A stretch of DNA of 64,000 bases, taken from NCBI RefSeq assembly GCF_000949475.1, contig NZ_JRHC01000001.1:868001-932000 (forward strand). The letters are read 5' to 3'. Shown piece after piece: positions 15,978-57,059 of the stretch. The position numbers were made by a program, and so were the translations under genes. The notes beneath the pieces were generated by a model that was given only the letters and a program-made list of their open reading frames with translations, was not told the origin of the DNA and made no database searches. Position 1 is the first letter of the stretch. Each line of letters begins with the position of its first letter. The DNA comes from Draconibacterium sediminis. Its GTDB lineage: Bacteria > Bacteroidota > Bacteroidia > Bacteroidales > Prolixibacteraceae.

Positions 15978-16053
15978 ATTTTTTCAATGTCATAAAAATT
16001 ATGCTTAGCTTTAATGCACTAAAGATTCTAAATGCCCGATACATTGAAAAAAT
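15978..16053. repeat. 13-bp perfect inverted repeat upstream of the DUF6261 gene
   Basis: ATTTTTTCAATGT (15978-15990) and ACATTGAAAAAAT (16041-16053) are exact reverse complements separated by 50 bp. They sit directly beyond the 41-bp repeat array. The rest of the stretch to 16140 is AT-rich and holds nothing else I can name. Confidence 0.6.
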
Positions 16054-16199
16054 CTCTTGCAAATACAAAACGAAAATATAGTCTGATATTTACAGACAAT
16101 GCATGTATTATCAGTGTGTTGTGGCGATGCGCGCTAATAAGAGATATGTTGCATTGCAACATACACATACGTTACCAACAAGGCTAAAAAACAAAAACC

Positions 16200-16472
16200 A
16201 TGGACGAAAAACACATTGCTGATTTAGAAATTCGTTGTATTACATGTGGTGATACAAAATTTGAATTTAAAGAAGATTATTCCTGGATAAAATGTGCTAG
16301 ATGCGGTAGAGAATATCCAGGAGGCAAAGACGAGCTGCTTGAATTAAATCAAGAAAACATTGATAATGCAATTGATGAGAATAAGGAAGATATATTAAAA
16401 GCAGCTCAAAAAGATTTAAAGGATATGCTTAAAAAATCGTTTAAAGGAAATGACTTTTTAAAATTTAAATAA
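16200..16472 (+). CDS. Small zinc-binding protein, ECs_2282-like
   Basis: This 90-residue protein has the N-terminal zinc ribbon CITC (13-16) and CARC (32-35), each followed by glycine as in typical knuckles. An acidic linker and a basic amphipathic C-terminal helix (KDLKDMLKKSFKG) follow. The layout resembles the ECs_2282 family of small putative zinc-binding proteins often found on mobile DNA; that match is from memory. It is AT-rich and lies one base before the next gene, so the two form one unit inside the putative cassette. Confidence 0.65.
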   Translation: MDEKHIADLEIRCITCGDTKFEFKEDYSWIKCARCGREYPGGKDELLELNQENIDNAIDENKEDILKAAQKDLKDMLKKSFKGNDFLKFK

Positions 16473-16473
16473 A

Positions 16474-16908
16474 ATGGAAATAGCTGGACTAATCATTTCG
16501 TTAGCTGCATTAAGTCTTGCAATCTTTACATATTTTAAGCATGACTTGAAAATAAAAAAGCAGGACTCTTTGCTGAAAACTTATCAAATTGAGAAAATAA
16601 ATCAGGAAAAAGAACAAGAAAAAAAAGCAATTATTGAAGCTAATGTAATTAAATACAACAAAGGAAAAAGAATAATTAAAATTTATAATAAGGGAAAATC
16701 GACTGCTAAAAATGTCAAAGTGCATATACCTGATGACGATGGATATGAGATAATGACTAATCCAAGCCCGATTGATATTAAATCTTTAAACAGCGTTGAA
16801 ATTGTTCTACTTACTTTCAATAGCAGTCCTGACAAAGTGAAAATTGATTTTGAATGGGATGATGAGTTCATGAAATTAAATACGGATTCTCAGACAATTC
16901 AAATTTGA
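16474..16908 (+). CDS. Single-pass membrane protein with coiled coil and beta domain
   Basis: This 144-residue protein has one N-terminal membrane segment (about 4-24), a highly charged coiled-coil stretch (about 28-55: KKQD, EKEQEKKA) and a C-terminal beta-rich domain (about 58-140) that looks like an immunoglobulin-type fold. It follows the zinc protein by one base. I do not recognise the family. Small membrane-anchored proteins of this type are common cassette or defence-adjacent genes, but nothing here proves such a role. Confidence 0.6.
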   Translation: MEIAGLIISLAALSLAIFTYFKHDLKIKKQDSLLKTYQIEKINQEKEQEKKAIIEANVIKYNKGKRIIKIYNKGKSTAKNVKVHIPDDDGYEIMTNPSPIDIKSLNSVEIVLLTFNSSPDKVKIDFEWDDEFMKLNTDSQTIQI

Positions 16909-16923
16909 AATATAAAGCCCAGT

Positions 16924-17056
16924 TGGTAACAAAGTACATATTGCAGGGCGGGGTTTGGTGGTACGCCAACTGCGGATTCTCGTTTCGCAGTTCCGTGTCC
17001 TTCGGACAGGAACGCTCTCCGAAATCCGCCCCGACAACATGTACCAACCGTTAACA
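16924..17056. mobile_element. attC-like recombination site
   Basis: The left end TGGTAAC (16924-16930) and right end GTTAACA (17050-17056) are complementary at six of seven positions, as R'' and R' boxes of integron attC sites are. Inside them GTACATATTG (16934-16943) pairs with CAACATGTAC (17034-17043), and GGGCGGGGTTT pairs with AAATCCGCCCC, with asymmetric spacers. The centre carries two further hairpins (ACTGCG/CGCAGT and TGTCC-TTC-GGACA). The 133-bp length suits large attC sites. The core is GTTAAC or GTTACC, not the usual GTTRRR. Confidence 0.5.
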
Positions 17057-56455: not shown

Positions 56456-56687
56456 GGTTAAGTTGATTGTAGTCAAACCAAAAATCACAGGATTTCTGAT
56501 TTAAATGAATACTTTCTGAATAAATAGACGCTTAATTCCGGGAAATACCTATTGATTTTAACATAAGATGTTTAAATTTAGAGCACCAAAAACGTTAAAC
56601 CTTTGCCGTTGCAGGCAGAAATAATGAAGTTCTTCTTATTGCAATAAAGCAGTTGCCCATTAAAAATAGCACAACAAAAAGCAAAAA

Positions 56688-57059
56688 ATGAAAAACAATC
56701 GAATCAGAAATGTATTAAAAGGCCTCAGTTTTACATCAGCGATGTTCATCTTTCAGGCGTGTTATGGTACCCCGCAGGATTTCGGATACGATAGACTGGT
56801 TGAAGGACAGGTTACTTCCGAAACAACCGGATTGCCGATAAAGGGGATTAAAGTATCGGTTGCCGGTGATAACAGTTATTACGTCACAACAGATGATGAA
56901 GGGAAATTCTTGATGTATTCGGAAAAATTTGAGAATTTAGTGGTTGGATTCGAGGATATTGATGGGGCAGAAAACGGATCTTTTCGGGATTTGTTCAAAA
57001 CGGTTGAGGATATAAGCGAATCGGTGTACCTGGAAATCGCGTTGAAGGACAAACTATGA
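56688..57059 (+). CDS. Radical SAM-associated putative lipoprotein
   Basis: This 123-residue protein has a signal peptide with lipobox-like end at C25 (FIFQAC). The mature part is a carboxypeptidase-regulatory-like beta sandwich (VEGQVTSETTGLPIKGIKVSV ... VTTDDEGKFL). It matches the lipoprotein regularly paired with a radical SAM/SPASM protein in Bacteroidales (the TIGR04134-type partner, from memory). Its last four bases (ATGA) overlap the start of that enzyme, so the two are translationally coupled. A modification of the lipoprotein by the enzyme is suspected but unproven. Confidence 0.75.
   Translation: MKNNRIRNVLKGLSFTSAMFIFQACYGTPQDFGYDRLVEGQVTSETTGLPIKGIKVSVAGDNSYYVTTDDEGKFLMYSEKFENLVVGFEDIDGAENGSFRDLFKTVEDISESVYLEIALKDKL

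Follow-up and report, generated by a model that had tools for sequence, protein, structure and literature searches.

A single integron-type cassette at an apparent fossil platform in Draconibacterium sediminis, and a Bacteroidota tyrosine recombinase without the IntI domain that may have moved it

Background

Each cassette of an integron has an outer left core complementary to the R'' core of its own attC site, as the cassette circle is cut between G and TT, and the usual layout is divergent. Messier and Roy, in 2001, are said to be the reference for the need of the IntI-specific domain in recombination. PMC9668308 describes this domain as necessary for integron recombination. In a 2022 survey (PMC9024848), one complete integron is named in Bacteroidetes proper, that of Salinibacter, and CALIN are reported by IntegronFinder 2 from at least 2 attC sites. 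Another kind of array, rAID (recombinase-associated acquired interbacterial defence) of gut Bacteroidales, is characterized in a 2025 preprint by short genes in one orientation with a tyrosine recombinase and with motifs conserved between the genes; the preprint calls the biogenesis of these arrays unclear, and the way gut bacteria collect immunity genes an area of active research (PMC12247911). Titles and abstract openings in the literature gave no paper recognisable as describing the system reported here.

The window analysed in this study is a stretch of 64,000 nucleotides from Draconibacterium sediminis (contig NZ_JRHC01000001.1, positions 868,001 to 932,000 of the forward strand), in which a first-pass annotation had placed a lone integron-type cassette that might use a different recombinase. 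Our reading, to which we assign a probability of about 0.85, is that the window holds one integron-type cassette of a Bacteroidota capture system, moved by a recombinase without the IntI domain and situated at an apparent fossil platform. The site structure, the exchange point, the different cassettes at a fixed locus, the recombinase-array link and the absence of IntI from the genome are legible in the sequence itself.

Results and discussion

The cassette and its genes

The genome is 5.99 Mb in size, and the spot between 16171 and 17056 contains two compact genes and a hairpin of ~130 bp. The following features, all on the plus strand, were assigned to the locus:

15998..16023, plus strand: possible fossil integrase promoter, a block resembling the promoter region found at array recombinases; 22/26 letters agree with the corresponding block before the recombinase gene of contig C13
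16032..16144, plus strand: remnant of a short reading frame (MPDTLKKSLA...), in the place occupied by the recombinase gene at intact loci; the first ~10 codons are similar in other copies and the rest has diverged (by eye)
16145..16171, plus strand: attI-like left end, a 19-nt palindrome TATGTTGCATTGCAACATA followed by CACATACG; near-identical ends lie on contigs C14 and C17
16172..17050, plus strand: putative cassette as recombination unit (879 bp), with cores GTTACCAAC/GTTGGTAAC paired 9/9 and with other cassettes between the same flanks in five relatives
16200..16472, plus strand: cassette gene 1, encoding a 90-aa CxxC zinc-binding protein of the ECs_2282 type (NF047912, 43.9 bits, cut-off 37)
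16474..16908, plus strand: cassette gene 2, 144 aa, with an apparent N-terminal membrane helix (read from the sequence) and no family match
16922..17056, plus strand: attC-like site, with R'' at 16922-16930, the left arm from 16934, inner hairpins, the right arm to 17044 and R' from 17050

The two genes agree with their first description as compact and AT-rich, with a one-base gap between 16472 and 16474 and a GC content of 0.27-0.32 over the cassette genes against about 0.45 further out. The product of gene 1 also resembles Ribosomal_S27e, with a score under the cut-off of that family, and is the subject of a single PADLOC match (E 0.0046). Gene 2 had no match in Pfam, NCBIfam or PADLOC. Neither window gene matched an immunity family in Pfam or NCBIfam, and neither protein had a match in any other fetched locus.

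Structure of the attC-like site

The element after gene 2, to which the order of an attC site had been ascribed, reads as described. The R'' core GTTGGTAAC (16922-16930) is followed by the arm GTACAT (16934-16939), whose partner ATGTAC lies at 17039-17044; with an arrow marking the exchange point, the right core is G↓TTAAC (G at 17050) and the left core of the cassette is G↓TTACCAAC (G at 16171). Folding energies are -30.6 kcal/mol for the bottom strand (z -4.5; equalled by 0/200 shuffles) and -27.0 kcal/mol for the top strand (z -3.3; equalled by 1/200 shuffles). A fold devoid of extrahelical bases had been named as evidence against an attC-like nature, and a single such base is visible in the bottom-strand fold. 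The substrate may be a single strand.

BLAST with the element hit 10 places in the own genome including the window, and a single array on contig C13 accounts for 4 of these. When the C13 region was scanned for hairpins with a home-made routine, a looser setting yielded 14 hits versus 3 to 8 in five shuffles and a strict one 1 hit, and a covariance model was used instead. With this model (R1), constructed from 10 sites of the own genome that consequently match by construction, a genome-wide search gave 24 matches at E ≤ 1, and the 21 below 1e-3 comprised 7 in the C13 array and 14 dispersed sites, the window among them. Rfam 15, run over the window and two array loci, gave two tRNAs alone, both in the window.

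In a MAFFT alignment of the 10 model sites, 93.7% of the stem cells pair and both sides have changed in 18/27 pairs. None of 500 shuffles reached any of five covariation measures; as related sequences can exceed such shuffles, the better control is to slide the partners by one column, upon which pairing fell to 38-40%. One site (L022:4660-4793) folds weakly on both strands (z -0.8 and -1.2), and its support is thus covariation and not energy. The anatomy of these sites is attC-like: the outer cores TAAC/GTTA pair, spacers of ~3 and ~5 nt stay unpaired, the stem is interrupted by single unpaired bases and the inner part varies, so that the imperfect palindrome, the conserved outer cores and the unpaired spacers of integron sites are all present. 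The fixed core pair GTTAAC/GTTACC suggested earlier did not hold, the letters after GTT being cassette-specific.

Exchange point and own-cassette core rule

In the window cassette, the left core GTTACCAAC and the right (R'') core GTTGGTAAC are reverse complements of each other over 9/9 letters. When eight cassettes of the C13 array were compared, six matched in this way over 9-10 letters and one over 7, and the eighth matches by eye. In related loci, neighbouring cassette pairs 100-6000 bp apart were taken from the own array and 19 recombinase loci, 20 sources in all, in which 121 of 126 sites could be parsed. At least 6/7 letters matched within the own cassette in 82/99 pairs, 98 of the 99 being distinct, and within the same site in 1/99. 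These pairs are without full independence, since related species share some history; 17/99 miss the rule, and sites overlooked in between are the likely explanation. In the named Bacteroidota loci described below, among the matches listed, the own-cassette match was found in 20/24 and the same-site match in 2/24, or 17/21 and 2/21 without locus L102, which is the same place as L084.

The 82 own-cassette matches against 1 same-site match in 99 pairs are the signature of exchange at G↓TT, the outer cores of one site coming from different cassettes as in integrons. This own-cassette core rule is the strongest single result of the study.

The window locus as an apparent fossil platform

A recombinase gene is absent at the window locus, and the left flank looks like a fossil integron in which the promoter-like block and the attI-like end are kept and the recombinase is gone. 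The block at 15998 is the best of 1,660,428 own-genome positions after the C13 recombinase gene itself, and in a Markov control 0/443,500 positions score 20 or more of 26 against the promoter block. Seven other sites score 20-21/26, two at other fossil ends (C14 and C13:301135) and one before an ordinary gene. The last of these lies in the window at 56565-56590, where 21/26 letters agree with the recombinase promoter ahead of an ordinary gene for a 123-aa product (56688-57059); the likeness to the promoter is therefore partly generic to the host.

The remnant frame at 16032..16144 may derive from the recombinase gene, and the local recombinase was presumably deleted. At the same locus of genome G069, the start and about eight recombinase codons are kept (NTHPEIT), and the platform on contig C19 of the own genome keeps NTYPEIT. 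The end at C13:301135 (L018:16352, minus strand) has a promoter-like block, a start codon with NTH and attI-like AACCCAA/TTGGGTT repeats, with no cassette in the 900 bases looked at.

The palindrome and the ending before 16172 recur nearly unchanged at C14 and C17 and in a similar form after the intact recombinase of genome G060. Among 21 blocks after recombinase stops, compared by eye, 14 end in TACG↓TT, 6 in TAG↓TT and 1 in CACG↓TT, with divergence beginning at the core, and the crossover point in the window probably lies between 16171 and 16172. A left core could be placed for 6 of the 14 dispersed sites, and all 6 have an attI-like end by eye. The left edge of the unit had been defined by a GTTACCA core; the core is there, but the edge consists of a whole attI-like end and not of the core alone. 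Likewise, the cassette is lone as far as the window goes, but it sits at an apparent fossil integron, and the same genome has a full array with its recombinase on C13.

Downstream of the cassette is a gene that, from its open reading frame, we take to be of the gltD family. This flank is present in 36/37 genomes of the genus, the own genome included, and the region was fetched from 15 others. Five of them keep the right and part of the left flank with other cassettes between (G064, G067, G070, G041 and G069, with 1, 1, 2, 2 and 3 R1 sites, respectively), G039 has one R1 site and G037 a partial one, and no R1 site was found in the regions of 8/15 (G035, G053, G060, G061, G062, G065, G066 and G068). 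Both flanks and a palindrome ending CATACG↓TT are kept in G065, with other DNA between. The cassette DNA itself (16171-16925) was found in 0/139 other family genomes (E 1e-5), while the flanks are shared. Relatives carrying the element with unrelated genes had been proposed as a search target, and the five are of this kind; a fixed unit of the two genes and the palindrome, the contrary expectation, was found in none of the 139. The integron-type nature of the cassette is supported by the covarying stem, the own-cassette core rule and the different cassettes between the same flanks.

Association of the recombinase with arrays

The C13 array is immediately preceded, on its own strand, by a gene for a 376-aa tyrosine recombinase (C13:381589-382719). 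In 20 fetched recombinase loci of the family, 119/119 R1 matches (E ≤ 0.1), in 19 loci, are on the recombinase strand; in the twentieth, without an R1 match, the contig ends about 1.1 kb past the recombinase gene. The 114 parsed matches are all downstream of this gene, ~3 kb of upstream sequence having been fetched. A pattern search of named genomes gave at least 80 loci, 38 of those listed being from Bacteroidota, and for the listed loci 42/42 R1 matches, in 18/80 loci, are on the recombinase strand and downstream; the bases searched in the 38 Bacteroidota loci numbered 319,245 upstream versus 161,544 downstream. As 4 of the 42 matches (L102) repeat L084, there are 17 distinct named loci and 157 distinct matches overall, and all 157 (from 19/20 family loci and 17 named Bacteroidota loci) lie on the recombinase strand.

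Named loci with at least 3 kb downstream have sites in 15/19, with none in L114, L123, L127 and L135; in the tree described below, L127 and L135, though from Bacteroidota, fall outside the recombinase clade and L114 and L123 inside it. The other 42 listed loci, titled as other phyla or unplaced, had no R1 match, which says little on unrelated site types since R1 was built in Draconibacterium. Loci with sites include those of Winogradskyella, Xanthomarina, Eudoraea, Natronoflexus, Alkalitalea, Marinifilum and Lunatimonas. Within the family, a recombinase match at 1e-30 (plain Xer paralogues included) was obtained in 122/140 genomes, and R1 sites at 1e-3 in 122/140.

Some array units are of unusual form. 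In L082:7200-12349, three equal-scoring attC-like sites lie ~2.5 kb apart, suggesting a tandem-amplified cassette. The 8.5-kb unit C13:380372-371848 (L022) has several large genes by eye and might be one cassette of many genes or a run of cassettes whose sites were lost, and the ~1.45-kb units C13:364319-362860 and C13:369452-368001 (L021, L022) are near-identical by eye, suggesting a recent duplication in the same array.

The array recombinase and its relation to IntI

The recombinase is without the ~40-residue IntI domain and has an N-terminal extension of ~100 residues. Its best PDB match is IntI4 (2a3v), the alignment breaking at the additional domain of IntI. As a whole protein it scores 203 bits against TIGR02249 (cut-off 265), with model positions 178-238 skipped, and 224 bits against NF040815 (cut-off 220), whose NCBI name is 'site-specific tyrosine recombinase/integron integrase'. 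Residues R230, K255, H319, R322, H345 and Y354 are invariant in 21 recombinases. The spacing from KG..R to HxxRH is 64-65 in 45/47 Bacteroidota rows (2 unparsed), 62-74 in the parsed Xer-like rows and 106 in the 7/14 IntI rows that parsed. In a tree of 89 chosen rows, four of which hold a stop, the 14 IntI form a clade of their own (100/100), and a second clade (94/93) unites 45 Bacteroidota rows, the deep order of IntI and the new family being without resolution. The predicted structure of the D. orientale recombinase (pLDDT 81.3, pTM 0.50) has an N-terminal alpha-beta domain at residues 5-72 and no predicted extra helix at residues 280-295, presumably where IntI carries its inserted helix. 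By spacing, TIGR02249 score and separate clade, this enzyme is not an IntI with its additional domain.

A tyrosine recombinase with the integron-specific insertion had been suggested as something to look for, and no canonical IntI over the cut-off was found in the own genome. Such genes occur in 5/140 family genomes and in 85/296 sampled genomes of the phylum, and the fetched flanks of the 5 family genes contain no R1 sites. Three genomes (G111-G113) have model sites and canonical IntI without a full-length copy of the array recombinase, so another enzyme could handle such sites there. The earlier idea of a different recombinase is supported on two counts: canonical IntI is absent from the genome, and the arrays regularly accompany a tyrosine recombinase that has no IntI domain. 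The enzyme working the sites is very probably the array recombinase.

rAID arrays of gut Bacteroidales

A plasmid of Phocaeicola massiliensis encodes a recombinase with 43% identity over 374 residues, and Imm22 and SUKH genes come after it. Comparable arrays, annotated as containing immunity genes, are present on plasmids of Parabacteroides distasonis and Bacteroides ovatus. These arrays were called rAID by their layout. Taking the best match over candidate positions in all three classes of comparison, an own-cassette core match of at least 7/10 letters was found in 6/6 cases in Parabacteroides, 9/15 in Bacteroides and 5/6 in Phocaeicola (20/27 in total), versus 1, 0 and 0 same-site matches and 5/30, 10/210 and 4/30 for other pairings. 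R1 gave 0 matches on one Phocaeicola rAID plasmid. The gut rAID arrays thus seem, from their core sequences, to be built by the same cassette system. In viral contigs the rAID recombinase had one distant match, and in the class sample it was found in 6/296 genomes at 1e-70, own genome included, a count that is no measure of the spread of the system. On two gut plasmids (L249 and L250) the recombinase gene is closely preceded by a gene of the TetR family, a possible regulator.

Proposed mechanism and alternative explanations

The 376-aa recombinase very probably joins attC-like sites, folded as hairpins, to an attI-like site that follows the recombinase gene closely, and strands would be exchanged before TT (G↓TT in Draconibacterium). 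Since the attI-like site is just downstream of the recombinase gene, cassettes would pile up downstream and on the recombinase strand. The window copy would be located at a platform minus the recombinase gene, at which the promoter-like block and the attI-like end stay and the cassettes differ between species; exchange there was probably made in trans by the C13 recombinase, or took place before the local gene was lost. We lean, with a good deal less assurance than for the window itself, towards a broader view: Bacteroidota may have their own integron-like system, separate from IntI, in which a XerA/XerD-like recombinase without the IntI domain acts on folded attC-like sites and serves several attI platforms per genome in trans, some of them recombinase-less, and rAID would be its immunity-gene branch. 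If gut rAID arrays are such a branch, they would have been assembled by cassette capture. That this is a separate system has a fair chance.

The window might instead hold an ordinary integron cassette, with a canonical IntI in the lineage now or formerly and the neighbouring tyrosine recombinase as a bystander. The site anatomy and the G↓TT exchange point are indeed those of integrons, and canonical IntI is found in the phylum and the family, including G111-G113. We nevertheless consider this unlikely, as the five family IntI genes have no R1 site in their fetched flanks, the own genome has no IntI over the cut-off, and the sites are on the strand of the array recombinase in 19/20 family loci and, among the matches listed, in 18 named loci. 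A slightly smaller chance is given to a lone cassette inserted at a random secondary site rather than at an old integron: IntI1 is reported to use attG sites (PMC12901181), and the window has one cassette and no integrase nearby, but the left end is structured and attI-like, with close copies at two other loci and a similar end following an intact recombinase, and between the same flanks one to three sites are present in five relatives. Such an insertion was our first reading of the window and was dropped once the attI-like left ends appeared. Finally, inner hairpins and a position after a gene end would also suit a repeat or terminator whose adjoining genes vary for other reasons. A terminator does not explain the core rule, by which every site is linked to the two ends of the cassette it belongs to, and the stem covaries with conserved TAAC/GTTA ends; this possibility is close to negligible.

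Under the preferred reading, a cassette moved by a recombinase without the IntI domain, the same exchange signature would arise without that domain, and the question is how else a folded site is recognised. Searches requiring IntI would miss such arrays or file them as CALIN, and the link to rAID offers an explanation, open to testing, of the way immunity genes are gathered by gut bacteria.

Comparison with known systems

Four described systems are close to the one reported here. 1) CALIN also have sites without an integrase beside them. A CALIN has at least 2 attC sites without IntI, whereas one R1 site is present in the window, with one to three at the locus in five relatives, and a non-IntI recombinase is encoded elsewhere in the genome. 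2) XerA, XerC and XerD share the core domain, the KG..R to HxxRH spacing and an NF040815 score over the cut-off, but not the N-terminal extension and the steady link to cassette arrays. 3) rAID arrays share the 43% identical recombinase, the apparently co-oriented downstream array, conserved intergenic motifs and the same own-cassette core rule. They differ in having immunity genes, ~60-bp sites and A↓TTA in their attC-like copies; with regard to their layout, a tyrosine recombinase upstream of co-directional short genes, the C13 array has the recombinase homology and the site strand, and the window locus is without a recombinase. 4) Integrons share the folded attC-like site, the pairing of outer cores within the own cassette, exchange at G↓TT, a putative attI-like site beside the recombinase gene and small AT-rich genes. 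In contrast to integrons, the recombinase here is without the IntI domain, has the ~100-residue N-terminal extension and forms a separate clade, the array is downstream of and co-oriented with the recombinase gene, and several attI-like platforms without a recombinase occur in the same genome. Judged from these sequence comparisons, the system works like an integron, and it is not a member of the IntI-defined integron family because its recombinase, when compared for the defining IntI feature, does not have it.
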